NCBI RefSeq assembly: GCF_015910535.1
Contig: NZ_JACBJG010000012.1
Coordinates: 62,001-126,000 of the forward strand
Length of the DNA stretch: 64,000 nucleotides
Source: Saccharomonospora sp. NB11
GTDB taxonomy: Bacteria > Actinomycetota > Actinomycetes > Mycobacteriales > Pseudonocardiaceae
Reading direction: 5' to 3'
Of the stretch, positions 45,684-63,826 are shown piece after piece. A model generated the notes under the pieces. That model was not told where the DNA came from, ran no database searches, and saw only the letters and a list, made by a program, of their open reading frames with translations. How positions within the stretch are numbered: the first letter of the stretch is position 1; every line of letters starts with the position of its first letter. A program made the translations under genes and the position numbers.

Positions 45684-45687
45684 CTCG

Positions 45688-45775
45688 TGGCGGTAGCGGT
45701 GGGATTTGAACCCACGGACGGTTGCCCGTCACACGATTTCGAGTCGTGCTCCTTCGGCCGCTCGGACACGCTACC
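45688..45775 (-). tRNA. tRNA-Ser (anticodon CGA), CCA encoded
   Basis: Minus strand: acceptor GGTAGCG pairs with CGCTACC, discriminator G, encoded CCA at 45688-45690. Anticodon loop CTCGAAA gives anticodon CGA (codon UCG); T loop GGTTCAAATCC; long variable arm as expected of class II serine tRNA. 88 nt. Confidence 0.97.
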
Positions 45776-45843
45776 GCTGAAAACAATACTGCATGCCCCG
45801 ACGCTGATCGCCGACGGGTCCGCAACACCGATCTTCGGCCTGG

Positions 45844-46326: not shown

Positions 46327-46805
46327 AGTTCGTCGAGCAGGGTCGCGAACTGGTCGGCGAACCCGCAGCGTTGCGCGATCATCTGCAGCTGCTCGTCGGG
46401 GTAGAGCTCGACCTCGTTGACGATGACCTCCAGTTCCGCCTTCGGCATCCCGAGGTCGGCGAGGATCTCCAGATCGCCCGCGGGCCACACCACGTCGTCA
46501 TCGTCATCGGGCGCCTCGGCCCTGAGCAGGTCGAGCACGTCGGCGGCGATGTCGTAGTCCAGTGCCGCCGCCGCATCGGAGAGCAGCAACGACACCCCGC
46601 TCGGAGTCGGCCGGACGACCACGAAGAACTCGTCGTCCACTGCCAACAGCCCGAACACCGCCCCGGTCGACCGGAGCTTCCGCAACTCGGTGATGGTGGT
46701 GTCCAACTCGGTCAGCGCCGTGTCGGCCAGCCGGTCGCAACGCCAACGACCGTCCTCACGCACCACGGCCACTGCGAATCCCGTGACCGGCCCTTCCAGC
46801 GCCAT
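46323..46805 (-). CDS. tRNA adenosine deaminase-associated protein
   Basis: 160 aa. TGFAVAVVREDGRWRCDRL, an acidic central patch (EAPDDDDDVVWPAGDLEILADLG, read as APDDDDDVVWPAGDLE) and EVIVNEVELYPDEQLQMIAQ match the actinobacterial protein family always found next to tadA. Whether it assists deamination is not known. It overlaps the tadA start by 4 bases. Start ATG 46803-46805. The preceding open frame to 48719 is antisense to the M20 gene. Confidence 0.9.
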   Translation of the reverse strand: MALEGPVTGFAVAVVREDGRWRCDRLADTALTELDTTITELRKLRSTGAVFGLLAVDDEFFVVVRPTPSGVSLLLSDAAAALDYDIAADVLDLLRAEAPDDDDDVVWPAGDLEILADLGMPKAELEVIVNEVELYPDEQLQMIAQRCGFADQFATLLDEL

Positions 46806-46877
46806 ACGACCACCGTATACCGCGACGGCCCGACGCAAGCGACGAACGACGTCGGGCGCACGTGTCACTATCGGAGC

Positions 46878-48110
46878 ATGACCGGACCGACGGACCTGCC
46901 CTCCCTGCCCGACGCCCGCTTCGCGGGACTGCTCGACGAGGCGAAAGCCCTCCAAGCGAGCACCGTCGCCCTGCGACGCACGATCCACCGCCGTCCCGAA
47001 CTCGGCCTTCAGCTCCCCGAGACCCAGCAGGCGGTGCTGGATGCGCTCGACGGGCTGCCCATCGAGACCACCCTGGGCACCACGACCACGTCCGTGACCG
47101 GCGTGCTGCGGGGTTCGCAGCCCGGCCCGGCCGTGTTGCTGCGCGCCGACATGGACGCGCTGCCGATGCCGGAGGACACCGGCCTGGAGTTCGCGTCCGA
47201 GGTCCCGAACGCGATGCACGCCTGCGGCCACGACACCCACGTGGCGATGCTCGTGGGAGCCGCTCGCCTGCTGTCCGAGCACGTCGACGAGCTGGCCGGG
47301 TCGGTGGTCTTCATGTTCCAGCCCGGCGAGGAGGGACACCACGGTGCCCGCCACATGATCCACGAGGGCGTGCTCGACGCCGGCGGCACGCGGGTGGCGA
47401 ACGCCTTCGCGATCCACACGTTCGCCAATCTGCCCACCGGCGTCATTGCGACGCGGTCCGGCCCGGTGCTGGCGTCGGCCGACAGCTTCTCCGTCCGCGT
47501 CGTGGGCAAGGGCGGACACGGCTCCATGCCGCACTCGGCCGTCGACCCCATCCCGGCGGCTGCCGAGATCGTCACGGCGCTGCAGACCCGCGTGACCCGC
47601 AGCGTGGACGTGTTCGACCCCGCGGTCGTCACCGTCACCCGCATCGCGGGCGGCACGACGGACAACGTCATCCCCGAGACCGCCGAGCTGGAGGGCACCA
47701 TCCGCACGTTGTCCGAACGCACCCGCGCGCACCTGCGCACCGAGGTGCCTCGGGTGGCGGAGCAGATCGGTGAGGCACACGGCTGCCGCGTCCTCGCCGA
47801 CGTTGTGCCGGGTTTCCCCGTCACCGCCGCCGACGAGACCGAGACCCAACGTGTGCTCGACCTCGCCGCCGAGGTGCTCGGCGCCGAACGCTCCCAGCGC
47901 ATGGCCAACCCGATCATGGGCGCGGAGGACTTCTCGTACGTGCTGCAGCGGGTTCCGGGCGCGTTCGCGTTCCTCGGTGCCTGCCCGCCCGGCGTCGACC
48001 CGGCCGAGGCGGCACCCAACCACTCCAACCGCGTGGTCTACGACGAGGACGCACTCGCCTACGGCGTCGCGATGTACGCCGCCTACGCACTCGACAGCCT
48101 GCGCCGGTGA
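46878..48110 (+). CDS. M20-family metallopeptidase/amidohydrolase
   Basis: 410 aa from ATG 46878, GGAG just before. Zinc-hydrolase motifs of the IAA-amino-acid/hippurate hydrolase type: LRADMDALPMPE, HACGHDTHVAMLVG, FQPGEEGHHGARHMI (catalytic Glu-Glu) and MGAEDFSYVLQRVPGAF. A bacterial dimerisation domain with GKGGHGSMPHSAVDP lies in the middle. Cytoplasmic; probably removes an acyl group from an N-acyl amino acid. Divergent from the tadA pair. Confidence 0.94.
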   Translation: MTGPTDLPSLPDARFAGLLDEAKALQASTVALRRTIHRRPELGLQLPETQQAVLDALDGLPIETTLGTTTTSVTGVLRGSQPGPAVLLRADMDALPMPEDTGLEFASEVPNAMHACGHDTHVAMLVGAARLLSEHVDELAGSVVFMFQPGEEGHHGARHMIHEGVLDAGGTRVANAFAIHTFANLPTGVIATRSGPVLASADSFSVRVVGKGGHGSMPHSAVDPIPAAAEIVTALQTRVTRSVDVFDPAVVTVTRIAGGTTDNVIPETAELEGTIRTLSERTRAHLRTEVPRVAEQIGEAHGCRVLADVVPGFPVTAADETETQRVLDLAAEVLGAERSQRMANPIMGAEDFSYVLQRVPGAFAFLGACPPGVDPAEAAPNHSNRVVYDEDALAYGVAMYAAYALDSLRR

Positions 48111-48140
48111 CGGTGAACCGATCGGGCAGGATGTGCTGCC

Positions 48141-49127
48141 ATGAACACCGTGCGTGACGTGTGTGTGATCGGGCTGGGCCTGCTCGGCGGCTCGGTTCTG
48201 CGAGCGGCGGTCGCCTCGGGCCGCAAGGCCTGGGGAGCGTCGACGTCCGTCGCCGACGCCGAGGCCGCCACCGCCGACGGCTTCGACGCGCGGGGCGGCG
48301 ACGGTGCGGTCGCCGACGCGTTGAGCCGGGCCGCCGCCACCGACGCCGTCGTGGTGCTCGCCGTCCCGCTCACCGCCGTCCGCTCGGTGCTCACGCGAAT
48401 CGAGCAGCACGCGCCGGGCTGTCTGGTGACCGACGTGACCAGCGTGAAGGCCCCGGTCCACGACGCGGCGCGGGCGGTGGCCCCGTCGGTGACGTTCGTC
48501 GGTGGGCACCCGATGGCGGGGACGGCCGAGTCGGGCTGGCGCGCCTCGACGCCGACGCTGTTCGACGGTGCCGCCTGGGTGACCACCCTCGACGGCAGCA
48601 CGGACCTGTCGGCGTGGCGGGAGGTGGCCACGCTCGCTCTCGATCTCGGGGCACGGGTCGTTCCACTCGACGCCGACACCCACGACGAGACGGTGGCCCG
48701 GATCTCGCACGTCGGACATCTGCTGGCCGCGGTGCTCGCGTCGGTCGGCGCGGCCGGAGGGCCGGTCGCCGCTTCGCTCGCCGCCGGGTCCTTCGCCGAC
48801 GGCACCCGAGTGGCCGGTACCCGGCCTGAACTCGTCCAGGCCATGACCGAGGGCAACCGTGACGCCCTGCTCCCGGTCGTCGACGAGGTGCTGGGCGCGC
48901 TCGGAGCAGCGCGGGGGTCACTCGCCTCCACGGGCGGACTCGCCGCCACGATCCGGTCCGGGCACGACGCGCTCCGTCGGATGGCGGAGCAGCGCGACGC
49001 GCCCACCACCCCGGTGCGAGTGCGACTCGACGCACCCGACGCACCCGAGGCGTTGCTCTCGATCGGCCACCGTGGCGGCCACGTCACCGGTTTCGATGGT
49101 GACGTGGCCCTGGCCGACGTGCCCTGA
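48141..49127 (+). CDS. tyrA: prephenate dehydrogenase
   Basis: 328 aa. Rossmann N-terminus VCVIGLGLLGGSVLRAAVASG, then VVVLAVPLTAVRSVL, CLVTDVTSVKAPV and the signature GGHPMAGTAESGWRAS with the catalytic His. The helical C-terminal dimerisation domain contains ARISHVGHLLAAVLA. Converts prephenate to 4-hydroxyphenylpyruvate for tyrosine. No ACT domain is evident. tadA-M20-tyrA clustering resembles the Rv3752c-Rv3754 region of mycobacteria. Confidence 0.93.
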   Translation: MNTVRDVCVIGLGLLGGSVLRAAVASGRKAWGASTSVADAEAATADGFDARGGDGAVADALSRAAATDAVVVLAVPLTAVRSVLTRIEQHAPGCLVTDVTSVKAPVHDAARAVAPSVTFVGGHPMAGTAESGWRASTPTLFDGAAWVTTLDGSTDLSAWREVATLALDLGARVVPLDADTHDETVARISHVGHLLAAVLASVGAAGGPVAASLAAGSFADGTRVAGTRPELVQAMTEGNRDALLPVVDEVLGALGAARGSLASTGGLAATIRSGHDALRRMAEQRDAPTTPVRVRLDAPDAPEALLSIGHRGGHVTGFDGDVALADVP

Positions 49128-49136
49128 CGCGGCGGG

Positions 49137-49376
49137 TCAGGGCTGCGGGCGCGGAGGCGGCGGCTGACCGCCCGCCTGCCCCGTGTCGTCGCCACCGGCG
49201 TTGCGGTGCAGGAACTTCTTCGCCTTCTCCGTGGCGTTGTCGATCTTGCTCGACTGTTTGCCGAATCGGGACTTGGCCATTCCGCTCGCCTTGTCCAAGC
49301 CCTGCTCGATCTTGTCGCTGTTCTTCGTCAACGCGTCCTGAGCCTTGTGCTTCAGCTCGTTGAAGTTGATGCCCAT
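49137..49376 (-). CDS. Rv0909-family putative antitoxin
   Basis: 79 aa. MGINFNELKHKAQDALTKNS and DKIEQGLDKASGMAKSRFGK match the short, Lys-rich family named after mycobacterial Rv0909; the C-terminal 15 residues are Pro/Gly-rich. No Rv0910-like toxin gene is adjacent, since the neighbours are tyrA (convergent) and a FUSC transporter, so the antitoxin role is doubtful here. Confidence 0.82.
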   Translation of the reverse strand: MGINFNELKHKAQDALTKNSDKIEQGLDKASGMAKSRFGKQSSKIDNATEKAKKFLHRNAGGDDTGQAGGQPPPPRPQP

Positions 49377-49433
49377 ACGACCAATGGACCAGGCTCTGGC
49401 TCGTCCCGCAACGCGAGCGCCGCGCTGCCCGAC

Positions 49434-51392
49434 TCACCGCACGTGCCGGAACGTGTGCGGGTCCGGCCCCGCCACCGCGTCGACGGCGTTCGTGAGCTGC
49501 GTGCGGACGTCGGCCAGCACCTCGCCTCCCGGCAGCTCCACTTCGGGTGCCTCGATCCCGGTTCGCACGGCAAGCGCGATTTCCGCGAGCGCCGCACGGA
49601 CCTTGCGCACCTCGCTCTCCTCGGGCGGTTCCGCGGCCTGCTGGTCGATCGCCACGCCGACCGCCGTGACGGCGTCGGTGAGCTGCTCCAACGCCACGAT
49701 CGCGGGCCACCACGCGACCGCCTGCCGACCTGCCGCCGACGGCTCCACCACGATCTGTTGGAACGCCGTCCGCAGGTTCGACAGCTCGCGATAGCACTTC
49801 CGACGTCGCCGCGACCGGGCGTTGCGGGCATCCTCGTCCGCCATCGGTCGCAGCGCGTACTCGGCGTACTCGGAGATCGCCTCGGCCGCGTCGGCGAGGT
49901 TGCCCCCCAGCGCGGGTCTGCGGCTGCCCGGCCAGAGCACGTAGCCGAACACGAGCACCAGCACGCACCCGACTGCGGTGTCGATCACGCGCACGGATGC
50001 CACCCCGTAGTCGCCCGAGGACAACGCCATCTGCACCAGGATCACCGGCGTCACGAAGGCACTCAGCAGGCCGTAGTGCCGCCCCTTGCCGATCGCGACG
50101 CCCATCCCGAACACCGCGACCACCACCGCCAGCAGGGCACCGTGAGGCACCAGCGACAACGCGAGGGTGCCGATCCCGGCGCCCACCACGGTGCCCAACC
50201 CACGCAACACGGCCCTGCCGAACACCGAGCCGAAGTCGGGTTTGAGCACCAGACCGACGGTCAGCGTGATCCAGTACGACCGGTCGGTGGGCAGGACGAA
50301 CCGCACGACCTCCGCCACCGCCACGCACACCGTGAGTCGCACCGCGGCGAGCCACACCAACGGCCCCGACGCGAGCGTCTTCACCCACTCGACGACCCGG
50401 TCGGCGGCCGACGTCTTCGTCCGGCGCAGGCGTTCCTCCTCCGTGCCGATGTCGTGGAGCGCCTGGTAAAGCGCGGCGACGGCGGGTGCCTGTTCGGGCC
50501 GTGGTTCCTCCCGCAGCGGAGGCACGCGCGGCAGGGGCGTGTCGGACAGCACCGCGGTCGCGAGGTCCGTGCAGTGCGCGATGAGAGCACGGGGCGGCCG
50601 GACCCCCGAGTTCACGGCCGCCACCGTCGCCTCGATGGCCGGAGTGGTGGCGGTGAGCAGGTTGAGCAGCTTGCGGTAGGTGTCGTCGCGCCCCGGCAGC
50701 CACGACCGGGCGGCGAGCAGTCGGTCGTAGGCGGTGTTCAGCGCCTTGGTGAGCTGGTGCCGCGCCTCCAGCGCCGTCTCGTCGTCGTCCGCGGCGACGG
50801 CCGACAACATCGTGGCGAGTTCGAGGTAGACCTGGGCGACCGCGCGCCGTTCCGGGCTGGTGGCCCGCACCGTCCAGCCCGCGAGCGCCACGAAGAGTCC
50901 CCACCCCGCCCCGACGCAGAACAGCGACAACGACAACCACGGCGACGCCGCGTCCGTCACCAGCCCCGAGCCGAGCACGGTGAAGACGAACAATTGCAGC
51001 GCCGCCGTCGACGCGTTGCTCCCCGCATCGCTGATCAGCGCCGACACGGCGGCGACGACGATCACGACCGACACCGACACCACGGTGTCGTCTCCACTCA
51101 CGATCCCCAGGCCGAAACCCACGACGGCCGCGCTCAACGCCCCGACGAGCCGGACGGCGCGAGCCCGGTACGTGTCCGTGGTGTCCGCGGTGATCGACGG
51201 CAGCGCCCCGGTGGACGCCAGCGCGCCGTAACCGATGTTGCCGAGCAGATAGCCCACCAGGATGGGCGCCGAGAGGACGACCGCGGCGCGCAGCAACTGG
51301 TTCCACCGGATCGGGTCCAGGGGCACGCGCAGCAGATGCACGATCCACCGTGGGGTGGCGCTGCGGCGGCCGGTCGCGTCCACGACGACCAT
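49434..51392 (-). CDS. FUSC-family membrane transporter
   Basis: 652 aa. Two repeats of hydrophobic bundles flank a soluble middle: helices at ~35-180 (AAVVLSAPILVGYLLGNIGY; VVIVVAAVSALISDAG) and ~340-480 (LTVCVAVAEVVRFVLPTDRS; YWITLTVGLVLKPDFGSVFG), the latter with the FUSC signature R-x-x-x-T-x-G. A helical cytoplasmic domain follows (~500-652). Related proteins export aromatic acids. The start ATG is at 51390-51392. Substrate unknown. Confidence 0.9.
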   Translation of the reverse strand: MVVVDATGRRSATPRWIVHLLRVPLDPIRWNQLLRAAVVLSAPILVGYLLGNIGYGALASTGALPSITADTTDTYRARAVRLVGALSAAVVGFGLGIVSGDDTVVSVSVVIVVAAVSALISDAGSNASTAALQLFVFTVLGSGLVTDAASPWLSLSLFCVGAGWGLFVALAGWTVRATSPERRAVAQVYLELATMLSAVAADDDETALEARHQLTKALNTAYDRLLAARSWLPGRDDTYRKLLNLLTATTPAIEATVAAVNSGVRPPRALIAHCTDLATAVLSDTPLPRVPPLREEPRPEQAPAVAALYQALHDIGTEEERLRRTKTSAADRVVEWVKTLASGPLVWLAAVRLTVCVAVAEVVRFVLPTDRSYWITLTVGLVLKPDFGSVFGRAVLRGLGTVVGAGIGTLALSLVPHGALLAVVVAVFGMGVAIGKGRHYGLLSAFVTPVILVQMALSSGDYGVASVRVIDTAVGCVLVLVFGYVLWPGSRRPALGGNLADAAEAISEYAEYALRPMADEDARNARSRRRRKCYRELSNLRTAFQQIVVEPSAAGRQAVAWWPAIVALEQLTDAVTAVGVAIDQQAAEPPEESEVRKVRAALAEIALAVRTGIEAPEVELPGGEVLADVRTQLTNAVDAVAGPDPHTFRHVR

Positions 51393-51446
51393 CTTGACGC
51401 ACGGCCCCCGTCGTGGCTGGCTACTGCGAGACCGGCGAATCGCCCG

Positions 51447-54023
51447 TCAGCCCGCGCCGAGGCAGAGGAACGGGCGACGGAACGGATCCACCGCCGTCGC
51501 CTCGGCCAGGGCCACGGCGGGCGAACGTCCCGCCGCGAGCCGGGTGTGGAGGTCCGTCATCGCCTCCGCGGAGGCGTGGTCGCCGACCCGCGCGACCGCG
51601 CCGACCACCGTGCGACACCCGCTGGCCAGCAACGCCCCCGCGAAGCCGAGCGCCTCCTCACCGGGCCGGATGTGGCTCAACGCCAGTTCGCAGGCGGCCA
51701 GCACGACCTGGTCGGGCGGGTTCGGCAGGCGCGCGGCCTCGTGCGCGAACAGGGGCCCGTCCACCAGCTCCAGCCGGGAGAACAGCGCGTTCGCCGGTTC
51801 GTGGGCTCCGTGGGCCACGAGATGGGCCAGCCCGGAACCGTCGAGTGCCTCCAGCACCGCGTCGCTGGTCGCCTTCTCGCCGTCCACGAGGCGCGCCGTC
51901 GGATACACCGAGGTCAGCTTGCCGACCTCGCCCACCGCGCCCGGCACTCCCGGGCCGCCCACCAGCACCACCGGTTCGGGCTTCGGTCGACTCGCGGCGC
52001 CGAGCCACGCCGTGGCCGACGGCGCCACCGACAGCGGCCGTCCCCGCAGGCTCGGCAGTGCGCCCCACGGCAGGGCGTGCAAGGACCCCGTCGGAATGAT
52101 CACCAGTTCGCGGTCGGCGACGAGCCGTCCGAGTGGGGCGAGCAGCATGTCGTCCAGCCGGGCCGCCCGGCGTCGCGCCGACGACAACACGGCTGCCGCG
52201 AGCGGCGCGGGCAGGTGGTCGGGAGCGAGTGCGTCGAGGTCGGCCCGCAACTGGTGGGTCAGCTCCACCGCATCGCCCAGGACACCCAGTCGCACGAGCG
52301 CGAATCGGCCGTCCCGCACCACCACCGCGGCGAGGGTGTCGGCATGGCCGACGAAACTGACCATGACCCGCTCGCCGAGCGCGTCGGCGACCTGGTCGGG
52401 AGACGCGACGGGCCGAGGCCGCCCCCACTGACTCGTGTACCACCCGAGCCGGCTCGCCTCCCGCTGCAACCACGCGTAGCGATTCTCCAGCGCGGTCACC
52501 GGCTTGCCCGCGAGGCGGTTCTGCTGCACCGAACGCTGCACGTGCCGCATCTCCGCGAGGTGCTTGGCCAACACGGGGTCGTCGATCGCGGGCATCGGCT
52601 CGTAGCGGTACGCCTGAGCACGGGTTCGTTCCTGCCAGGCGAACAGCCGCCGGGCCCCGTTCTGTCCCGACGCGCTCTCCAACACCAGTCCGACCGCGAG
52701 CGTGCCCAGTTCCTGTCCGTGTACGGCGGTACCGCAGAGCAGGTCGAGCCCACCCATCCGATCACGCGCCCGACCCAACTCCGCCAGCCCGGCCCTGGCC
52801 TGCGCCAACGCGGACCGACGACTGCCCGTGGCCACCGCGAGTTCCGCCCGGCACAGCCGCAGCAGCATGCGGTGGTCCACCGGCGTCGTACGGCGTGGCT
52901 TCGGCACGCTGTCGAGCAACGCGGTGGCCTCGTCCAGTTCCCCCCGCCTCAGCAGCAGGCGCACGGCGAGCAGGCGGGCAGCCGCCGTCTCGTCGCGCAG
53001 CCCGAGTTCGGCCAGTCGCTGGGACACCTCCACCAGCGCCGAGGGCAGTCGGGCAGGCGGCAGTCTGCCCTCCTCCAGCACTTCGGTCGCGTCCGCTCGG
53101 AGCCGTGCGAGGGCGGCCACCTCCGCCCACGGAAGGTTGCCTCGCCTCAGGAACCGGCGACGCGCCGACACCGCGAGGCGTCGGGCGGCGTCGAACTGCC
53201 CCTCCAGCAACGCGGCGGCAGCCCTCGCGACCTCCGCCTCGGCGAGGTCCTGGATCACCTGGTTGCGGCGCAGCTCGGGCAGTGCCTCGTCCAGGTGGCG
53301 TGCCGCCTCCGTGGCCAGCCCCGCGACGAGCAGCGCACGCGCCTGGTCGAGGCGGACCCTGGCCACCCAGCCCGGTGCCGCGTCCTCCAGGATGCGCACC
53401 GCCTCGTCGTAGTGGCGCAACGCGCCCGGGATGTCCCCGGTGAGCTGCGCCAGGTCGCCCAGCCCGTGCCGAGCCTTGCCCTCGATCCTCCTCAACCGAT
53501 GCTCGGAGGCCAGGCGGATGGCCCGGTGGAAGTCCTGCGCCGCCGCGTCGACGGCACCGGTCTCGGCGTGGATCTGCGCCCGGTTGGTCAGGGTGCGTGC
53601 CAGCAGCAGACCGTCGTCGTGCCGGAGGTCCTCCAACGCGGGAATGATCGCGTCGAACAACGCGACCGACTCCGACGCCCGTCCCACCCGGAACAGCAAC
53701 AACGCGCGCTGCCCGGTGATCACGGCGTCGAGCTCACGCCGCAACGGCCCCTCCGGGAGCTGTTCCAGCTCGGCCCTCGCCCGCTTCAAGCCACGGAAGC
53801 CGTCGGCCGTCGAACCGACCTCCGACGTGGCGAGAGCCAGGCTGATCCGCACCCGGATACGCGCGGCGACCCAGTCCGTCGTCTCCCGGCCCGACGCCTC
53901 GATCAGTCGCAGGGCCTTGCGCAGCAGGCGAATGGCCTCGACGTTGTGTGCGCTCGCCGCCGCGTTGTTCGCCCGACGTTGCAGTGCGAGAACGGCGGAG
54001 AGCCGCGCGGTGTGAGAAGACAC
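51447..54023 (-). CDS. TPR-CHAT caspase-like peptidase
   Basis: 858 aa, GTG start. Residues ~1-550 are helical with TPR-like spacing (ARTLTNRAQIHAETGAVDAA; ALRHYDEAVRILEDAAPGW). The C-terminal ~270 residues are a CHAT domain: LVIIPTGSLHALPWGALPSL, the His motif HLVAHGAHEPANALFSRLEL (His near 738) and the Cys motif VVLAACELALSHIRPGEEAL (Cys near 778). Both catalytic residues are present, so it is probably an active cysteine protease. It ends the sigma-factor operon: 10 bases separate it from the small protein gene. CHAT proteases act in bacterial conflict and regulated proteolysis; the target here is unknown. Confidence 0.9.
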   Translation of the reverse strand: MSSHTARLSAVLALQRRANNAAASAHNVEAIRLLRKALRLIEASGRETTDWVAARIRVRISLALATSEVGSTADGFRGLKRARAELEQLPEGPLRRELDAVITGQRALLLFRVGRASESVALFDAIIPALEDLRHDDGLLLARTLTNRAQIHAETGAVDAAAQDFHRAIRLASEHRLRRIEGKARHGLGDLAQLTGDIPGALRHYDEAVRILEDAAPGWVARVRLDQARALLVAGLATEAARHLDEALPELRRNQVIQDLAEAEVARAAAALLEGQFDAARRLAVSARRRFLRRGNLPWAEVAALARLRADATEVLEEGRLPPARLPSALVEVSQRLAELGLRDETAAARLLAVRLLLRRGELDEATALLDSVPKPRRTTPVDHRMLLRLCRAELAVATGSRRSALAQARAGLAELGRARDRMGGLDLLCGTAVHGQELGTLAVGLVLESASGQNGARRLFAWQERTRAQAYRYEPMPAIDDPVLAKHLAEMRHVQRSVQQNRLAGKPVTALENRYAWLQREASRLGWYTSQWGRPRPVASPDQVADALGERVMVSFVGHADTLAAVVVRDGRFALVRLGVLGDAVELTHQLRADLDALAPDHLPAPLAAAVLSSARRRAARLDDMLLAPLGRLVADRELVIIPTGSLHALPWGALPSLRGRPLSVAPSATAWLGAASRPKPEPVVLVGGPGVPGAVGEVGKLTSVYPTARLVDGEKATSDAVLEALDGSGLAHLVAHGAHEPANALFSRLELVDGPLFAHEAARLPNPPDQVVLAACELALSHIRPGEEALGFAGALLASGCRTVVGAVARVGDHASAEAMTDLHTRLAAGRSPAVALAEATAVDPFRRPFLCLGAG

Positions 54024-54033
54024 GCCCGCGCGA

Positions 54034-54498
54034 TCAGAGCACCACCGCGGGCGTCACCACCGTGCGCCGCCCACCTTCTCCGCCGACGTGCACGACGATC
54101 TGCGTGGTTCCGCTCGGCACGTCGTTGAGCACGAACCGGCCTCCGTCGTCGGCCACCGTGGAACACGTGTCGTGGCCCGCCACCCGAACCTCCACCGCAT
54201 GTTCACCCTCGGGGACGAGCCACCCGTCGATGCGGTGCCTCGGCCCGGTCTTCGTCAAGTTCACCATGACCGTGAGGTCGCTGACGGTGAAGGTGATCGT
54301 GCCCTGGGCGACACTGCGAACCCCGGCCAGCGCGTCGGCTCTCTCCCACTGCGCCACCTCGACGTCGAGGTCCTCCAGGGCGAGCGCGAACTGCACCCGC
54401 TCGACGAGGCCGGAGGGCGGCGGGTCGAACGTGTCGATCAGCCGGTCGAGGTCCAACAGCAGGGTGTCGTCGTCCGGGTAGGAGCTGCTGTCATGCAT
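54034..54498 (-). CDS. small beta-sandwich protein between sigma factor and CHAT gene
   Basis: 154 aa from ATG 54496-54498, overlapping the sigma-factor stop by eight bases. An acidic N-terminus (SSYPDDDTLLLDLDRLIDTF) and helix precede two beta-rich segments: TITFTVSDLTVMVNLTKTG and VRVAGHDTCSTVADDGGRFV, the latter like carboxypeptidase-regulatory/Ig-like sandwiches. No signal peptide or membrane helix. Position makes it a candidate anti-sigma or CHAT partner; this is inference only. Confidence 0.78.
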   Translation of the reverse strand: MHDSSSYPDDDTLLLDLDRLIDTFDPPPSGLVERVQFALALEDLDVEVAQWERADALAGVRSVAQGTITFTVSDLTVMVNLTKTGPRHRIDGWLVPEGEHAVEVRVAGHDTCSTVADDGGRFVLNDVPSGTTQIVVHVGGEGGRRTVVTPAVVL

Positions 54499-55102
54499 CC
54501 GCTGTCCCCTCCGTAGCGTCCAGCGCCTCCCGGAGGCGCCGCAGGCACCGGCCCCGCGTCGGGCCCACACTCCCACGCGGCATTCGCAACACGTCGGCCA
54601 CCAACCCGTACTCGGCCCTTCCCGCGAGCACCGTCAGTCGAAGCAGCTCCTGGCACCGGTCCGGCAGTCCGCGGAACGCCTCCCAGATCCGGCGATCACG
54701 ATCGGCCCGCACGGCCTCGGCCTCCGGTTCAGGCTGGCTGCTGGGCATGTTCTCGGCCAACTCGTCGGTCAACGGCACCGGACGACTCAACCGTTCGGCC
54801 ACGGCGCGGGACTCGCGACGGGTCGTGGTGATCAACCACTTGGCGAGCGCCTTCGGATCCTCGATTCGCTCCAGACTGCGGAACAACGCGAGCCACACGG
54901 TCTGGACGACGTCCTCGGCAGTGTGTCTGTCGAGGCCGTTGCCCCGAGCCACCTGCCACACCAGTGGAGTCAGTTCCTCGACCAACCGATTCATGGCACT
55001 GCGGTCGCCCGCCCTCGCGGCATGCATGCAGGCCGCGTAGAGGTCGTGACCGCGCAACCCGTCCCACGACGGATCGGCCTCGGCCGTCTTGGCGTCGGTC
55101 AA
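54491..55102 (-). CDS. ECF-like RNA polymerase sigma factor
   Basis: 203 aa from a TTG at 55100-55102 with GGAAGG 8 bases before; a GTG at 55204 would add 34 residues of poor character. Region 2 reads ARAGDRSAMNRLVEELTPLV, WQVARGNGLDRHTAEDVVQT and WLALFRSLERIEDPKALAKW; region 4 reads LPDRCQELLRLTVLAGRAEY and VLRMPRGSVGPTRGRCLRRL. It would direct RNA polymerase to a small regulon, likely its own operon with the small protein and CHAT protease. No classical transmembrane anti-sigma gene is adjacent. Confidence 0.85.
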   Translation of the reverse strand: MTDAKTAEADPSWDGLRGHDLYAACMHAARAGDRSAMNRLVEELTPLVWQVARGNGLDRHTAEDVVQTVWLALFRSLERIEDPKALAKWLITTTRRESRAVAERLSRPVPLTDELAENMPSSQPEPEAEAVRADRDRRIWEAFRGLPDRCQELLRLTVLAGRAEYGLVADVLRMPRGSVGPTRGRCLRRLREALDATEGTADA

Positions 55103-55637
55103 CGCATCCGCCTTCCCGAATCTCGATGTCGATATTCGCGAACGCAGTATCTCGGGCTCCTCGGAGCGACACACCAACTTGCAGGAAAGCACTCGCACAC
55201 TCACACGTTCGGACTAATGGACACGGCGGTGCGAGCCGGACGGCGCGGCCCGGGATCCCACAACCGCGCCGCCGGCTCGCGATGAGGTTCCCGCGGGCGC
55301 CGACTGTGTCGGACGCACGTGGGCGAACCTCACCTTCCCCGGAAGTCCCACCCCAGTCGGACTCCCGACCGGGTTGGTCGCCACCCCCACCGACGCACGC
55401 GTCGGCGACCAACCCGACACCCCCTGCACAACGCCGTGGCCGACGACCATCGACTGGTCGACGACCGTGCGACCACGGCGTCGCGGTGCCACCGGTCCGG
55501 CCGACGGTCACCGCGTTCTCCCCCTGACTCGCCGCCGAACTCCCCCCGAGTTCGGCGACACCCCCGGTCGTGTGGTGCGGCGGTGGCCGGCGGCCCCCTC
55601 GACTGCCGGCCACCTGCTCGTCACGTGGGTCACCCGT
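55103..55637. other. 535-base gap with hairpins, upstream of the sigma-factor gene
   Basis: No supported gene. It should hold the sigma operon promoter (minus strand) and the terminator of the repeat-protein gene. Besides the strong hairpin listed separately, GTGG...CCAC and GACCATCGACTGGTC pairings occur around 55437-55485. If the sigma factor starts at the GTG 55204, the gap begins there. Confidence 0.5.
55370..55416. terminator. 13-bp hairpin downstream of the repeat-protein gene
   Basis: CGGGTTGGTCGCC (55370-55382) and GGCGACCAACCCG (55404-55416) are exact complements; inside the 21-base loop CGACG and CGTCG (55391-55395/55400-55404) can extend the structure. It lies about 220 bases after the repeat-protein stop and could terminate that gene or be a 5'-leader element of the sigma operon. 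Confidence 0.5.
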
Positions 55638-56378
55638 TCAGACGAGCAGTTGATCGATGTGCCCACGCGAGTCCTCGTGATACGCCACCGGCAGCCGGTG
55701 GTTCATCGCCAGCAACGCCAACGTCGCCAGGTGGGCGTGCCCGGACTCGGACGCCGACGACAACTGCCGCCAGCCCACCCCGTGGATCGCGACCCACACT
55801 CCGTCGTTCTCCACCGCCGACCACAGCCGCGTGATCAGCGCACGCTGAACCCAACCGCCTCCCGCGTCGGGCCGCCGGTCCTCCCCCTCGGACTCGACGT
55901 GTGCCGGACCGGCGACGGGCCCGCTCAGCGGCTGAGGTTCGACCCGAGCGGGCGGCTGGTACGGATCCCAGCCCGCGGGTGCGGGCGGCTGGTACGGGTC
56001 CCAGCCATTGGGCGCGACCGGACGCGACGGCGGCACGTACGGATCCCACCCGCTCGGTGCGACGGGCAGCGCCCTGGTCGGCGGCACATACGGGTCCCAG
56101 CCGCCCGGCACGACCGGACGCGACGGCGGCGCATACGGATCCCACCCGCTCGGCGCCACCGGCGTCGCCCGCGTCGGCGGCACATACGGGTCCCAACCAC
56201 TGGGCGCCACCGGTGTCGCCCGCGTCGGCGGCACGTACGGGTCCCAGCCCAGCGGCGGCGAGGGCGCCTTCGAAGCGTCCTTGTCGGTCTTCTCCTCGGG
56301 CACCACCGGCTCGTTCGGGGATGCCGTCGAGTTCTGATCGGCCTTGCCGTTGCGCTCGCTGACCGTCTCCTGCGTCAT
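55638..56378 (-). CDS. GWDPYxPP-repeat protein of unknown function
   Basis: 246 aa from ATG 56376-56378. Residues 1-43 are polar. From 44 to ~143 come seven copies of GWDPY[VAQ]PP separated by Pro/Arg/Ala spacers such as TRATPVAPS; the region must be extended. The final ~85 residues form a distinct, probably folded domain: GGWVQRALITRLWSAVENDG, VWVAIHGVGWRQLSSASESG, HAHLATLALLAMNHRLPVAY. No signal peptide. It begins 16 bases after the stop of the C1 peptidase gene, so the two are one operon. The repeats may be ligands, multimerisation or cleavage sites. I do not recognise either part. Confidence 0.82.
   Translation of the reverse strand: MTQETVSERNGKADQNSTASPNEPVVPEEKTDKDASKAPSPPLGWDPYVPPTRATPVAPSGWDPYVPPTRATPVAPSGWDPYAPPSRPVVPGGWDPYVPPTRALPVAPSGWDPYVPPSRPVAPNGWDPYQPPAPAGWDPYQPPARVEPQPLSGPVAGPAHVESEGEDRRPDAGGGWVQRALITRLWSAVENDGVWVAIHGVGWRQLSSASESGHAHLATLALLAMNHRLPVAYHEDSRGHIDQLLV
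55950..56249 (-). repeat. seven tandem GWDPYxPP-encoding repeats
   Basis: Codons 44-143 of the repeat protein hold seven units with spacings of 17, 17, 15, 17, 15 and 11 residues. Two 51-base units at the start are nearly identical in DNA, indicating recent duplication; the last two units read GWDPYQPP. Confidence 0.9.
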
Positions 56379-56394
56379 GATCCACTTCTTTCCG

Positions 56395-57537
56395 TCAGCC
56401 GACCAGTCGTACGGCGCCGAGATCCTCCCCCGAGACGAACGGCGCGCAGCCGAGTCCTCGCGCCTTGGCGAGCGCGAGCACGGCGAGGTCGGCGGTCTGA
56501 TCCCGCGACAGCCGCGTCCAACCCAGGTTCTCCAGGTAGGCCCAGCTGTTGTGGTCGTGGGCCGAGGTGAACAGCCCCAGTGCACGCTGCGGCGGGAGCC
56601 ACGCGTGCAGATCCACACCCGTGCAGCCGAGGGTGGTCGGCCGCGGGTCCGGATAGTCCTCGATGAAGGCCTCTCCGTACGCGATACGCAGGAACCCGTT
56701 CTCCCCCCAGTCGGTGCCCCACGAGTTCTTGGCGATCCAGCACCCGGCGTCGTCGTCCCAGCCCACGAGCGCGACGCAGTGCCCCCCGCTGGTCCTCTCG
56801 GTGGTGTGCCGGTAGACGCCGCCGGTGTAGTGGAACAGATCGTCGTGCACCACGAGGCACGCCGTGACGGGCCCGTAGTTGTAGAGGTGCTCCTTGATGG
56901 CCACCGGATCGCGACTCAGGTCGACGACGTCCTTCGCCTTGGCCAACCGGTCCCCCCACCCGTCGGCCAACTCCCCCGAACCATCCTCTGTGTACGGACA
57001 GTGCTCCTCGAAGGTGACACCCAGGTCACGGCAGTCGGTGAGCAGTTCGTCGGGCCACGTGCCGTCGGGAAGGATCGCCTCCCGGGCCGCCGCGTGGCCG
57101 AAGAACAGGTGCGCCTCGGACAGGTCCAGAGCCAGCCGAGGCGCACGCCGGGTGTAGGCGGCCGTGGTCTCCAACGTGGCCAACACCCCGAACGCACTGC
57201 ACGTGCCGCCGTCCCCCTGATCCTTCACCGGCGTCACGTAGTTGACCCCGTCGACGTCGCGCAGGTCGAACGACCTGGGCAGGTGCGGCGTCGGCGCGTG
57301 CTCGGTCTCCTCGTGCGTGTGCGGAGGCGCGAGCGCCGCCTCGGCCATGCGAGCGGGCAGGTCGGCCCGCGCCTCGATCTCCCTCGAGGACGGCGCCGGA
57401 ACCCCCAGCCGACGCCTGCGCCCCTCGGGCGAGAGCCTGCCCACCGGAGTCTCGCCGCATCGCCACGGATCACCCAACGCGGCCAGGGAATCGCGGATCG
57501 CCGCGATCTCCGAGGCGCACGAATGGTCCGGGCTCAC
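56395..57537 (-). CDS. C1 (papain-like) cysteine peptidase, apparently cytoplasmic
   Basis: 380 aa, GTG start with an excellent GGAGGA 8 bases before. After a ~85-residue N-terminal region comes a papain fold: SFDLRDVDGVNYVTPVKDQG (oxyanion Gln), GGTCSAFGVLATLETTAAYT with the catalytic Cys (Ser replaces the usual Trp after it), SGGHCVALVGWDDDAG with the catalytic His, and AKNSWGTDWGENGFLRIAY with the Asn. All catalytic residues are present. No signal peptide is visible, unusual for the family. A C-terminal ~75-residue extension follows. Co-transcribed with the GWDPYxPP-repeat protein; possible processing enzyme for it or for a nearby product. Confidence 0.9.
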   Translation of the reverse strand: MSPDHSCASEIAAIRDSLAALGDPWRCGETPVGRLSPEGRRRRLGVPAPSSREIEARADLPARMAEAALAPPHTHEETEHAPTPHLPRSFDLRDVDGVNYVTPVKDQGDGGTCSAFGVLATLETTAAYTRRAPRLALDLSEAHLFFGHAAAREAILPDGTWPDELLTDCRDLGVTFEEHCPYTEDGSGELADGWGDRLAKAKDVVDLSRDPVAIKEHLYNYGPVTACLVVHDDLFHYTGGVYRHTTERTSGGHCVALVGWDDDAGCWIAKNSWGTDWGENGFLRIAYGEAFIEDYPDPRPTTLGCTGVDLHAWLPPQRALGLFTSAHDHNSWAYLENLGWTRLSRDQTADLAVLALAKARGLGCAPFVSGEDLGAVRLVG

Positions 57538-57714
57538 GTAATCCTCCAGGCACAGCCGATTCGATCACTCACACTCACCACACAGGAGTGCGGAGGGACC
57601 GCCCAGATACATCCGAGATCGAGAAATTTCCGGCCGATCGCATTTGCGCACGTCGGAGCCGTCGAGGACCGGCACAGTCGCCTCGCGTCCCTCCCCCTCG
57701 GCCGGCGATCTGCG

Positions 57715-57720
57715 TAGTTT
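57715..57720 (+). promoter_or_regulatory. putative -10 of the ABC efflux genes
   Basis: TAGTTT lies seven bases before the ATG at 57728 and fits TANNNT; no Shine-Dalgarno precedes the ATG, so a leaderless mRNA is likely. Confidence 0.4.
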
Positions 57721-57727
57721 CGCTCCT

Positions 57728-58636
57728 ATGGGCGACTGCATCTCGATCTCGGGTCTCCGCAAGCGGTTCGGCCCGACGACCGCACTCGACGGCCTCGACC
57801 TCTCCGTCTCCCGCGGGGAGGTGCACGGATTCCTCGGCCCGAACGGATCGGGAAAGTCGACCACCATCCGGATCCTGCTCGGCCTCCTCAGGGCCGACGG
57901 CGGCACTGTCACGATCCTCGGCGGCGACCCCTGGCGCGATGCCACCCGCCTGCACCGGCGACTCGCCTACGTCCCGGGTGACGTGAACCTGTGGCCGTCG
58001 CTGAGCGGCGGAGAGGTGATCGACCTGCTCGGGCGGCTGCGGGGCGGGCTCGATCCCGACCGGAAGGCCGAGCTGATCGATCGGTTCGACCTCGACCCGA
58101 GGAAGAAGGGCCGCGCCTACTCGAAGGGCAACCGCCAGAAGGTGGCTCTCGTGGCCGCGCTGGCCTCGGACGTCGAGCTGCTCGTCCTGGACGAACCGAC
58201 CTCCGGGCTCGACCCGCTGATGGAGGCGACGTTCCGCGACGTCGTCCGGGAGGAACGCGAGCGCGGGCGCACGGTGTTGCTGTCGAGCCACATCCTGTCG
58301 GAGGTGGAGCACCTCTGCGACCGGGTGAGCATCATCCGCGCGGGACGGACGGTCGAGTCGGGCTCGCTGGCCGAACTCCGCCACCTGACCCGCACGACGA
58401 TCACGGCCGAATTGTCCGGGTCTCCCGACGGACTGACGGACCTCGACTCACTCCACGACTTGGAGGTGGACGGCCGTCGCGTGCGGTTCGCCGTGGAGTC
58501 CGACGCGCTCGACGACGTGCTGCGCACCCTCACCGCGATCGGGGTCCGCAGCCTCACGAGCCAACCGCCCACGCTGGAGGAACTCTTCCTTCGGCACTAC
58601 ACCGACTCCACGGACGGACGGGTGAGCGCGTCGTGA
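57728..58636 (+). CDS. ABC efflux transporter, ATP-binding protein
   Basis: 302 aa from ATG 57728; the frame is open to 57644 but lacks homology there. Walker [18 protein letters not shown]-loop-region [16 protein letters not shown], a signature-like [15 protein letters not shown], Walker [13 protein letters not shown] and H-loop LSSHILSEV. The signature lacks the canonical LSGGQ (KGNRQ), as in polyketide-antibiotic (TnrB2/DrrA-like) exporters. Its stop overlaps the permease start (GTGA). Confidence 0.93.
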
Positions 58637-60267
58637 ACACCGTCGTGCGCGCCGCGCGCCCGATCTCGTCGGGCGGCGGCCCGTTCACCGGCACCGGCCA
58701 CCTGGTCCGCCTCGCACTCCGCCGCGATCGGTTCGTGCTGCCGCTGTGGGCGATCGTGGTCGCGGCGCTGCCCGTGTCGAGCGCGAGCGCCTACGAACAG
58801 CTCTATCCGGACCCGGCCCAACGAGCGATGTTGACGGACGCGCTCGGCGACAACCCGTCGATCACGTTGCTGTACGGACCCGCGTACGACCTGTCGACGG
58901 CGGGCGGGTTCACGGCGTGGCGTCTCGGCACCATGCTCGCGGTGCTGCTCGCCCTGGTGTGCGGATTCACGCTCGTCCGCCACACCCGGCAGGAGGAAGA
59001 CACGGGAAGGCAGGAACTGCTGTCGTCCACTGTGGTCGGACGAAGGGCGTCGCTCACCGCGGCGCTCGTCGTGTCCGTCGGATTCGCTCTGCTCACCGGT
59101 CTCGCCGCGGCGGCGGGCTTGATCGGCGCGGGCAACGACGTCTCCGGGTCGCTGGTGTTCGGACTCGAGCTGAGCGCGGCGGGGCTGGTGTTCACCGGAG
59201 TCTCCGCGGTGACCGCGCAGCTCGCCGAGTACTCCCGCACCGCCAACGGCATGGCGGGAGCCGTGCTCGGCGTCGCCTTCGCGGTCCGTGCCGCGGGCGA
59301 CTCGGCGGACCTGCCCTGGTTGTCCTGGCTGTCCCCGCTCGGCTGGTCGACACACGCCCAGGCGTTCGCCGACGATCGGTTCCGGGTCCTCACCCTCCCG
59401 CTGGTCGTCACCATGCTTCTCGTCGCCGCGGCGTACGCGCTGCAGAGTCGACGCGACGTCGGCCTCGGTCTGCTGCCTGCCCGACTCGGGCCCGCGTCCG
59501 CGCACGCCCGGCTGCGCTCCGCCTTCGCCCTGGCCGCACGCCTGCATCGGGGCACGCTCACGGGCTGGTTGGTCGGGTTCGCCCTGTTCGGTGTGCTGTT
59601 CGGTGCGTTGGCGTCGGACATCGCCGAGATCGTCGGCGACAACGCGGAGATGCGCGAGGCCCTGGCCCGGATGGGCGGGAGCGAGGGCGTGATCGACGCC
59701 TACCTCGCGTCGACGGCCAACATCCTCGGCATGGTGGCCGCCCTGTTCGTCGTGCAGACAGCGACCCGGGTGCGGTCGGAGGAGACCGCTCTGCGTGCCG
59801 AACCGCTGTTGACCGGCGGTGTCTCGCGCCTGCGGTGGTTGTCGGGACACCTCGTGTTCGTGTTCGGTGGTGGGCTCGCACTGCTCGTGGTGGCGGGTCT
59901 CGGGGTGGGCCTCGCTCATGGCGTGCGGACCGGGGACGTCGGGGGACGGACACCCGAGATGGTCGTGGCCTGTCTCGTGCAACTGCCCGCCGTCGCGGTC
60001 GTCGGGGGCGCCGCCGTGCTCCTGTTCGGAGCCCTACCCGCCTACACCACCGGGGCTTGGGCCGTGGCGGCGGTGTCGCTGCTCCTGACGATGTTCGGCC
60101 CGGTGCTCGACCTCCCCCAGGCGGTGCTGAACCTCTCGCCCTTCCAGCACGTGCCGAAGGTGCCGAGTGTGGACGTCACACTAGCCCCGATGCTCTGGTT
60201 GGCCCTCGTGGCGGTCGGGCTGACGGCGGCGGGAGTCGTGCGGTTCACCCGACGCGACATCGGCTGA
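58633..60267 (+). CDS. ABC efflux transporter, permease
   Basis: 544 aa from GTG 58633. About 12 hydrophobic helices in two halves ([40 protein letters not shown]), matching the large permeases of TnrB3-type antibiotic/anthracycline exporters. [24 protein letters not shown] (seen as [12 protein letters not shown]) and its echo [20 protein letters not shown] in the second half are the conserved cytoplasmic loops. Exports an unidentified, probably hydrophobic compound with the upstream ATPase. Confidence 0.92.
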
Positions 60268-60291
60268 CCGCAGCAGCACCGCCGACCACGC

Positions 60292-60774
60292 TCAGCGGGC
60301 CGCCACCGTGCCGTCGGAGGCGACGTCGAGGTGCAGTTGCGGACCACCTGCGCCACAGCCGGGTCCGTTCGGCGACCCCCACTGCGGGGTGGCCCGCACC
60401 GTGCCGGTCGCGAGTGTCTCGCCCGCGAGGTCGGACACCACGAGCCTCACCTCCACCGGCCGGTCCGGCAGGTCGGGCAGGTCCGCGAAGCCCGTCGTCC
60501 CCCCGGTCTCGCGGACATGAGCCGAGCACACCGCGTCGGGCCCCTCGCCCTCACAACCGTCGTCGACGGCCTCCGTGGCCGGGCGCAGCTCGACGGCCAT
60601 CGTTTCGCACCGGCCTTCCCGGCACACCTCCACCTCGGCGGTGTGGGCGGGCAGTCCGCTCGCGACGTCGACGCCGATCCCGGCGGGCATTCCGATCGCG
60701 GTGCACTCCGCCGCACCGGAGCAGCCGACACACCCTGCGAGGACGAGACACCACGACACGATCACACGACGCAT
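60292..60774 (-). CDS. hypothetical lipoprotein, cysteine-rich
   Basis: 160 aa from ATG 60772-60774 (MRRVIVSWCLVLAGCVGCSG). The lipobox VLAGC predicts lipidation at Cys ~15. The mature part has about seven further Cys (AAECTAIG, VCREGRCE, DDGCEGEG, AVCSAHV, GPGCGAGG), suggesting disulphides, and an Ig-like strand pattern. No known domain. Convergent with the efflux permease. Confidence 0.72.
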   Translation of the reverse strand: MRRVIVSWCLVLAGCVGCSGAAECTAIGMPAGIGVDVASGLPAHTAEVEVCREGRCETMAVELRPATEAVDDGCEGEGPDAVCSAHVRETGGTTGFADLPDLPDRPVEVRLVVSDLAGETLATGTVRATPQWGSPNGPGCGAGGPQLHLDVASDGTVAAR

Positions 60775-60848
60775 ACCGGTGACGACGGTGTCCACCCGCT
60801 CCGAGGTTGCACGGGTGTCGGGCGAGCACGCTCGGGTAACCCGTTCGC

Positions 60849-62309
60849 ATGAGCGAGCACGACATCATCGACCGGGCCCGCACGCAACTGCTGATCGGCG
60901 GAACCTGGCGTGCGTCGGCCGACGGCAGCGTGTTCGGCGTGACCGACCCCGGCACCGGCGCGACGCTGTGCGAGGTCGCCGACGGGCAGGCCGACGACGC
61001 GAAGGCCGCCGTCGAAGCCGCCGTCGACGCGCAGGACGCCTGGGCAGCCACCCCGCCGCGAGAACGCGGCGAGATCCTGCGGCGAGCCTGGCAGTCGATG
61101 ACGGACCGCGCCGACGAGCTGGCCACGCTCATGACGTTGGAGATGGGCAAGAGCCTCACCGAGTCACGAGCCGAGGTCGCCTACGCCGCCGACTACTTCC
61201 GGTGGTTCTCCGAGGAGGCCGTGCGCATCGATGGCAACTACAAGAAGACCCCGGACGGCAGCGCCCGCATGATCGTCACCCGCCAACCCGTGGGGCCGTG
61301 CCTGCTGATCACTCCGTGGAACTTCCCGCTGGCCATGGGCACCCGCAAGATCGGCCCGGCGCTCGCGGCGGGATGCACGGCGATCGTCAAACCCGCCCAG
61401 CTCACGCCGCTGTCGATGCTGACCCTCGCCGCCCTCCTCGCCGAGGCCGGAGTGCCGGACGGCGTCGTCAACGTCGTGCCGAGCACGTCGGCCACCCGCG
61501 TCGTGGCTCCCGTCCTCGCCGACCCGCGCATCCGCAAGATGTCGTTCACGGGCTCCACCGAGGTGGGCCGCGCGCTCGTCGAGCAGTGCGCCCCGAACCT
61601 GCAGCGCATGTCCATGGAACTCGGGGGCAACGCGGCTTTCCTCGTGTTCGCCGACGCCGACCTCGACGCCGCCGTGGCCGGTGCGGTGACCGCCAAGATG
61701 CGCAACAACGGCGAGTCGTGCGTGGCCGCCAACCGCTTCCTCGTGCACGAGTCGATCGCCGACGAGTTCACCCGCATGCTGACCGACCGCATGGCGGGGC
61801 TGCCCGTGGGACACGGCACGCAACCGGACGTGGTCGTCGGCCCACTCGTCAACGAGAGCCAACGCGCCACGGTGGCCGACCTCGTGGGGGACGCGGTGAG
61901 CCGTGGCGCGCGGGCGACGACCGGTGGCGAGCCCGGGGAGGGCGACGGCTACTTCTACCGGCCGACCGTGCTCGCCGACGTCCCCGACGACGCCCGCATC
62001 CTCCGAGAGGAGGTGTTCGGCCCGGTGGCGCCCGTGACGACGTTCGCCGACGAGGACGAGGCGGTCACCGAGGCCAACGACACGGAGTACGGGCTCGTCG
62101 GCTACGTGTTCACCCGTGACCTCGACCGCGCCGTGCGGGTCGGCGAAGCCCTGGAGACCGGCATGGTGGGCATCAACACGGGGCTGGTCTCCAACGCCTC
62201 GGCGCCGTTCGGCGGGGTCAAGGCGTCGGGCTTCGGTCGGGAGGGAGGCGACGAGGGCATCGCCGAGTACCTGGACACGAAGTACCTGTCGTTGGCCCTG
62301 CGTTCCTGA
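60849..62309 (+). CDS. NAD(P)-dependent succinate-semialdehyde dehydrogenase family protein
   Basis: 486 aa aldehyde dehydrogenase. ITPWNFPLAMGTRKIGPALA and KPAQLTP form the cofactor site, SFTGSTEVGRAL the Rossmann Gly loop, MELGGNAAFLVF the general-base Glu and NNGESCVAANRFLV the catalytic Cys. EEVFGPVAPVTTF and NTGLVSNASAPFGGVKASG complete it. The VSNASAPFGG region and MGKSLTES favour the GabD subclass, which oxidises succinate semialdehyde to succinate in 4-aminobutyrate breakdown. Other aldehydes are possible. Cytoplasmic. Confidence 0.9.
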   Translation: MSEHDIIDRARTQLLIGGTWRASADGSVFGVTDPGTGATLCEVADGQADDAKAAVEAAVDAQDAWAATPPRERGEILRRAWQSMTDRADELATLMTLEMGKSLTESRAEVAYAADYFRWFSEEAVRIDGNYKKTPDGSARMIVTRQPVGPCLLITPWNFPLAMGTRKIGPALAAGCTAIVKPAQLTPLSMLTLAALLAEAGVPDGVVNVVPSTSATRVVAPVLADPRIRKMSFTGSTEVGRALVEQCAPNLQRMSMELGGNAAFLVFADADLDAAVAGAVTAKMRNNGESCVAANRFLVHESIADEFTRMLTDRMAGLPVGHGTQPDVVVGPLVNESQRATVADLVGDAVSRGARATTGGEPGEGDGYFYRPTVLADVPDDARILREEVFGPVAPVTTFADEDEAVTEANDTEYGLVGYVFTRDLDRAVRVGEALETGMVGINTGLVSNASAPFGGVKASGFGREGGDEGIAEYLDTKYLSLALRS

Positions 62310-62313
62310 GGCG

Positions 62314-62742
62314 TCAGTTCGGCTCGGGTGGAGTCGGGTCGTCGACGTCGATGACGCTGCCGGTGCCGCGCAACACGACCTCCGAGGAGAAGTGCCCCTC
62401 GCCCAACAACCGTTCGGTGGTGCCTTTCAGCTCGACCACCTCGTCGCCGCGCAGGAACACGAGGATGTTGCCCTCGGTGTCGAACCCGTACTCGGTGTCC
62501 GGCAACGGCGCACCGACCTCGCGCTCGACCCACTCCTCGGTGTGCGGGCCGAGGATCACGTGGACCGTGGTCCAGTCACCGGGCACCAACTCCTTGAGCG
62601 GCGTGCTCCGCCCGCTGTCACGCAGCTCGCGGAGGTGTCGGGCGAACCCCTCGTCGTAGTCCATCGACACCTCCTCCTTCCCCGGGCCACACGCGGCGAG
62701 CACGGCGGCGAACAGCACCAACACGACGGTGACGACTCTCAT
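62314..62742 (-). CDS. hypothetical lipoprotein
   Basis: 142 aa from ATG 62740-62742 (MRVVTVVLVLFAAVLAACGP), lipobox VLAAC. The mature part is acidic (RHLRELRDSGRSTPLKELVP; EEWVEREVGAPLPDTEYGFD) with an alternating strand pattern toward the end. GAGAAGAG precedes the ATG. No recognised domain. Convergent with, and 4 bases from, the aldehyde dehydrogenase. Confidence 0.75.
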   Translation of the reverse strand: MRVVTVVLVLFAAVLAACGPGKEEVSMDYDEGFARHLRELRDSGRSTPLKELVPGDWTTVHVILGPHTEEWVEREVGAPLPDTEYGFDTEGNILVFLRGDEVVELKGTTERLLGEGHFSSEVVLRGTGSVIDVDDPTPPEPN

Positions 62743-62884
62743 CGGAACTCTTCTCAGTAACGGCCGTCCGGATAGGCCGACGGATCCTCCGGCGTTGTAT
62801 GTCCTTCGCGCTCCGGAATAGGTGATCTCCTGCCCGTCGTGGTGCGAGTTCCCGCAGTTGGCCCCTATCGAAGTAGCCCCGCGC

Positions 62885-63748: not shown

Positions 63749-63826
63749 GCCTCCCAGGCTCCCGCAGGGCGGCCGATCGGGCCACGGTCAGCCACGGTTA
63801 CGGTGTCGGCAGAGGGAGGAGCCACA

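Follow-up and report, generated by a model that had tools for sequence, protein, structure and literature searches.

A short peptide motif tracks the TPR-CHAT protease in a sigma factor-linked gene module of Saccharomonospora and its relatives

The stretch of Saccharomonospora sp. NB11 DNA analysed here (64,000 nucleotides, referred to throughout as the window) carries adjoining genes for a papain-like protease of family C1, a repeat protein (REP), an extracytoplasmic function (ECF)-type sigma factor, a small protein (SMALL) and a tetratricopeptide repeat (TPR) protein with a caspase-like CHAT protease domain. Within the window's family, the Pseudonocardiaceae, a short motif that is repeated in REP tracks CHAT rather than C1. 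Comparison of gene neighbourhoods supports a unit made up of CHAT, the motif and, in many cases, a second protease, with the sigma factor and SMALL as their partner, and suggests that the caspase-like enzyme is connected with its partners through a short, repeated peptide tag. More tentatively, actinobacterial TPR-CHAT proteases may recognise their clients through a fast-changing short peptide tag carried on unrelated vehicles, namely the interior of a subtilase, a papain-adaptor protein or a free peptide of 55–66 amino acids; on the present sequence comparisons we regard this as possible rather than probable.

A motif that follows the CHAT gene

Upstream of the sigma factor gene, a motif resembling G-aromatic-D/E-P-Y/N-x-PP is present at 37 of 49 distinct Pseudonocardiaceae loci that bear CHAT and at 0 of 25 that lack it, where loci with identical SMALL sequences are counted once and five rows in which the CHAT side is cut off and three in which the upstream side is cut off are set aside. 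The pattern misses look-alikes that can be recognised by eye in L235, L240 and L097, and elsewhere it matches 1 of 1530 other genes. Its carriers are REP or separate genes of 55–66 amino acids. At C1 loci that bear CHAT, the REP arrays take the forms GWDPYxPP, GAWDPNTPP, GVYDPNTPP, GNWEPNTPP and others, the exceptions being L079 and L080, and at C1-REP loci without CHAT REP has no array. In L079, where REP is likewise array-less, a 210-amino-acid frame with TTDPSTATPLAATQGLVAPLG-type repeats (L079:9118-9750) adjoins the sigma factor gene. The CHAT loci of Amycolatopsis that lack C1 have instead a short separate gene with one or two motif copies, several of which end in PPVN, and those of Saccharothrix have a GHHQTHSVP form of the motif. 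The seven GWDPY(V/A/Q)PP units of the window's REP differ between one another in synonymous codons, so the protein sequence of the arrays appears to be kept.

Linkage of the two halves and the second protease

C1 was found in 29 of 150 Pseudonocardiaceae genomes, and in 27 of the 28 in which its surroundings are readable it adjoins sigma-SMALL (the exception is G115; the count leaves out G130, which is split over contigs, and the second, weaker C1 match of G131, L031). CHAT is also at the locus in 20 of the C1-sigma-SMALL genomes. Seen from SMALL the association is asymmetric: among 80 Pseudonocardiaceae loci from named genomes, the best 80 of 130 confirmed, C1 stands beside SMALL at 26 and CHAT lies directly downstream of it at 45, with the relevant side cut off in 5 more loci in each case, and the sigma factor gene is directly upstream at all 80. 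A real link between the halves that the original prediction had joined, C1-REP and sigma-SMALL-CHAT, is thus supported in the window's family, with this asymmetry as a qualification. Two loci on contigs titled Rhodococcus rhodnii NRRL B-16535 (L174, L196) have a gene order like that of Kibdelosporangium aridum, and the record title may be wrong.

An alternative is that C1, REP and the chagasin-family (I42) inhibitor gene found with them in relatives are an independent protease/inhibitor cassette that came to lie next to sigma-SMALL-CHAT and has at most a promoter in common with it. The minority of SMALL loci with C1 agrees with this, as does the occurrence of the trio without SMALL in L142 and L143, which belong to other families, and in L087. 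However, the near-invariant adjacency of C1 to sigma-SMALL persists although the flanking genes vary between groups, and in the absence of CHAT the REP arrays are lost and so, frequently, is the active-site cysteine. There are 10 distinct CHAT-less C1 loci in the Pseudonocardiaceae (L082-L089, L179 and L181), and at 7 of them, all from the Kibdelosporangium/Actinocrispum group, the catalytic Cys is replaced by Ser; no I42 was seen at these seven loci, and their REP is array-less or gone. An independent cassette is unlikely, although it is the best placed of the alternatives.

The C1 and REP proteins also have a C-terminal domain in common, which the original prediction had missed. Profile comparison of the two C-termini gives a probability of 90%, which becomes 91% (E 1.1e-6) when three hybrid-ended C1 rows are removed, compared with no more than 1.2% for any of 13 controls, eight with shuffled columns and five from other segments. 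In L084, L088 and L089 the last residues of REP form the end of C1 and a separate REP was not found, an arrangement that fits deletion between the two domain copies. Upstream of C1 in L063-L073 there is a conserved gene of about 170 amino acids, by eye a MarR-type regulator; none was called at that place in the window.

The spacing of about 0.5 kb between REP and the sigma factor gene, as first described, is correct, but it holds a sixth gene that had been overlooked, a decayed I42 gene. In relatives this gene comes after REP, and it lies between REP and the sigma factor gene in 16 of 17 aligned intact copies, the remaining one being L087, which has no sigma factor gene; PF09394 is matched by all 17. 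The window's remnant matches the relatives' profile (E 1.7e-5 over 51 positions), and by eye a stretch resembling the C-terminal end lies in another frame. The 53-amino-acid piece alone has no Pfam match, so no open frame matching PF09394 was found in the window, and a search of its genome (G000, 4.3 Mb, with a single C1 of the window's type) with PF09394 gave no match at E 1e-5. In G024, of the same genus (loci L065 and L163), the I42 gene of L065 is divided between two frames. A reading of the L062 copy as frame-broken was rejected; its open frame matches the relatives' profile over positions 13-115 and has no Pfam match, so it is degenerate. A complete I42 match is present at 21 of 30 distinct CHAT-linked C1 loci and none or only pieces at the other 9, with the catalytic Cys of C1 kept at all 30; this count leaves out L062, where the C1 gene was not called and which was read separately, as were L188 and L189. 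Outside the Pseudonocardiaceae, C1 adjoins I42 again in L142, L143 and L146, and weakly in L147.

At the level of the class, the second protease beside CHAT is nearly always a subtilase (S8). In a draw of 394 genomes, 44 contained SMALL, at 45 loci in all (L081, L144, L149-L161 and L242-L271), and with L256 set aside, since SMALL was not called there, 44 rows enter the neighbourhood count. The sigma factor gene is adjacent to SMALL in 42 of these and CHAT lies within five genes of SMALL in 30. Sigma, SMALL and TPR-CHAT form the core of the module, the first two as an almost invariant pair and the third as their frequent companion. S8 is within five genes in 28 of the 30 CHAT-bearing rows, the exceptions being the window, which has C1 instead, and L269, compared with 1 of the 14 rows without CHAT (L244, whose CHAT sits seven genes from SMALL); among 69 genes lying beyond five genes from SMALL there are 0 S8 and 1 CHAT. 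All 7 S8 proteins scanned match PF00082. In one genus (g89; L158, L246-L252 and L254) sigma-SMALL occurs without CHAT or S8 called, with recurring neighbours of about 193, 368, 215 and 880 amino acids. Across the phylum SMALL was found in 8 of 198 genomes, G000 included.

Within the Pseudonocardiaceae, none of 20 genomes with a CHAT-linked C1 has full-length S8, as opposed to 7 of 8 genomes with CHAT-less C1 loci, and in each of those seven the S8 gene is, by coordinates, no more than 1.2 kb from another CHAT gene. A strict replacement of S8 by C1 was considered and dropped, because S8 is missing as well from 9 of the 12 CHAT genomes that have no C1; the relation is one of exclusion.

Tandem repeats scoring at least 9 occur in 16 of 32 S8 proteins (in 1563 other genes the 99% level is 8) and are lineage-specific; with half of the proteins below that score, repeats were dropped as a universal feature of S8. 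Repeats inside S8, the tiny motif genes with their PPVN ends and the TPRs of CHAT together recall RRNPP systems, in which TPR receptors respond to peptide pheromones. The repeats, like the tiny genes, could be precursors of short signal peptides, freed by C1, S8 or CHAT and sensed by the TPR domain. No export signal was seen by eye, however, and tiny motif genes are also found at loci where neither C1 nor S8 was called, which makes signalling of this kind improbable and places it second among the alternatives.

The gene set, SMALL and related systems

Re-reading of the coordinates (Table 1) bears out the five-gene order originally described, all on the minus strand, with its 16-base gap, 8-base overlap and 10-base gap. 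Both proteases do have intact catalytic residues, and inspection by eye, without a predictor, revealed no signal peptide on either. The CHAT dyad is kept in 104 of 104 CHAT proteins longer than 600 amino acids that reach the site, a count in which some genomes figure twice; a 105th protein ends at a contig end.

Table 1. Features of the module in the window (window positions)
Feature	Coordinates	Strand	Basis
TPR-CHAT protease, 858 aa	51447..54023	-	PF12770 E 7.5e-29 and TPR matches; His738/Cys778
SMALL, 154 aa, candidate sigma inhibitor	54034..54498	-	alignment, structure model, sigma factor gene directly upstream in relatives
ECF-type sigma factor, about 203 aa, probable TTG start	54491..55102 (upper limit approximate)	-	TIGR02937 E 7.8e-20; PF04542 (Sigma70_r2) E 2.5e-10
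I42 (chagasin family) inhibitor gene remnant	55275..55433	-	tblastn E 3.6e-5, 43% over 53 aa
REP, 246 aa: repeat array and C-terminal domain in common with C1	55638..56378	-	
Seven GWDPYxPP units inside REP	55950..56249	-	
REP C-terminal domain (approximate limits)	55641..55856	-	profile match to C1 C-terminus
Papain-like (C1) protease, 380 aa	56395..57537	-	PF00112 (Peptidase_C1) E 1.4e-33; Gln107, Cys113, His253, Asn271
C1 C-terminal domain, homologous to that of REP (approximate limits)	56398..56604	-	profile comparison; hybrid C1/REP ends in relatives
aa, amino acids.

The structure model of C1 is cathepsin-like, as expected. That of SMALL has two N-terminal helices, a low-confidence stretch at 36-62 and a C-terminal beta-sandwich (pLDDT 69.7), and its fold search gave nothing at 0.001. 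Neither SMALL nor REP matches a curated family above its cut-off, SMALL having sub-threshold Pfam matches only. A sequence search of the PDB returned one weak match each for SMALL (E 0.38) and the REP domain (E 0.26) and, with CHAT as query, none at 0.01. A shared promoter motif upstream of the sigma factor gene was also sought; the dyad counts mostly reflected related sequences and yielded no usable motif.

The combination of sigma factor, inhibitor and protease is a known theme, of which the window's module would be a variation. In type III-E Craspase, the TPR-CHAT protease Csx29 cleaves Csx30, which inhibits an ECF sigma factor, according to the accessible part of PMC10028731, and the window resembles Csx29-Csx30-CASP-sigma in combining a TPR-CHAT protease and an ECF sigma factor with a further protein as candidate inhibitor. 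In contrast, the window's CHAT scores 16.8 bits with the Csx29 model, far below the curated cut-off of 300, and SMALL has 154 residues whereas the Csx30 fragments mentioned in the same excerpts extend to residue 565; the second protease and the peptide motif are extras of the window's module. No repeat family of CRISPR-array regularity is among the matches listed for window positions 44000-64000, which cover 20 of 22 families. CalpL-CalpT-CalpS, described in the available portion of PMC11417357 as a Lon protease, an anti-sigma factor and an ECF sigma factor, likewise pairs a protease and a sigma factor with a protein comparable to the candidate inhibitor, but its Lon/SAVED protease is activated by cyclic oligoadenylate and, in that portion, it comes without TPR-CHAT, C1 or S8. 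These two precedents, as far as those excerpts describe them, are what the assignment of SMALL as a candidate inhibitor that holds the sigma factor leans on.

The EACC1 and EACC2 conflict systems have caspase-like peptidases, and EACC2 neighbourhoods include ECF sigma factor and TPR genes; as described in the parts of PMC7159879 and PMC8195603 at hand, they include neither a sigma-SMALL-S8-CHAT set nor a papain/I42 pair nor a tandem motif, although no search here was aimed at EACC domains. Chagasin (I42) proteins are inhibitors of papain-family peptidases (PMC2607524, in excerpt), and intact homologues in relatives match PF09394 beside C1; unlike the proteins of those excerpts, the gene here belongs to a bacterial set without a visible export signal and is decayed in the window. 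Among the matches listed by a search of the open-access literature, none concerned the sigma-SMALL-S8-CHAT set or C1-REP-I42 with a sigma factor. A cascade of SAVED-CHAT, PCaspase and sigma factor reportedly exists; the literature search did not confirm it and it is not used as evidence. A role in defence is possible but unsupported, because no PADLOC-DB 2.0.0 profile matches any of the five proteins at E 0.01. Elsewhere in the window (34050-42833) a gene run includes, by reading of the sequence, genes for two GTPase-like proteins and one Hsp70-like protein, and might be another conflict-type cluster.

A proposed mechanism for the module

The gene associations can be accommodated by a mechanism in which the motif serves as an address tag read by the TPR part of TPR-CHAT, such that CHAT binds or cuts motif-tagged clients. 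REP would serve as the adaptor through which C1 docks on TPR-CHAT, with CHAT, once activated, freeing or activating C1, and I42, where kept, would restrain C1 by keeping stray enzyme off. SMALL, as a sigma inhibitor, would be let go or cleaved on firing of the complex, with a transcriptional response as the outcome; release of the sigma factor by CHAT is plausible by analogy with Craspase. The module appears cytosolic as far as inspection by eye can tell. Binding, cleavage and sigma control are each inferred, and we hold the mechanism as a whole tentatively, a little more so given that no more than 21 of the 30 CHAT-linked C1 loci have a complete I42.

Several observations weigh against such a mechanism. 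The motif pattern was composed after the sequences had been seen, and the loci are related, so the counts are not independent events; 12 of the 49 CHAT loci have no motif, including two C1 loci (L079 and L080). The incomplete or missing I42 at 9 loci goes with a C1 Cys that is kept there, and L179, L085 and L087 retain the Cys despite having no CHAT, L085 and L087 with I42 present. Half of the S8 proteins (16/32) show no clear repeats, and the 80 Pseudonocardiaceae SMALL loci yielded no S8 call. Because CHAT stands at 21 of those 80 with no C1 and no S8 called, the second protease is not always beside CHAT, and full-length S8 is missing from most CHAT genomes without C1. Confidence in the SMALL model is middling, and its best fold match, FN3/Ig-like, has an E value of 5.6e-3.

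The originally proposed alternative, in which C1 cleaves REP or one protease releases the sigma factor directly and the repeats have no role as a tag, can point to the adjacency and common domain of C1 and REP and to ECF sigma factors freed by a protease in the accessible parts of PMC10028731 and PMC11417357, but it is the least probable. The repeats track CHAT rather than C1, which disfavours action of C1 on them: REP is repeat-less where CHAT is absent yet the C1 Cys is kept (L085, L087, L142 and L143), and CHAT loci that lack C1 still have the motif.

To our knowledge, CHAT proteases have few known substrates or ligands. If CHAT can be used to predict a short motif in its neighbourhood, the choice of substrate or ligand becomes open to direct and inexpensive tests. 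If reading of the motif as a tag by TPR-CHAT is correct, the module would tie a caspase-like protease to a second protease and a sigma factor, with exchangeable partner proteases and no CRISPR genes in view, and different effector proteases could be plugged into one sigma-linked, caspase-like switch.

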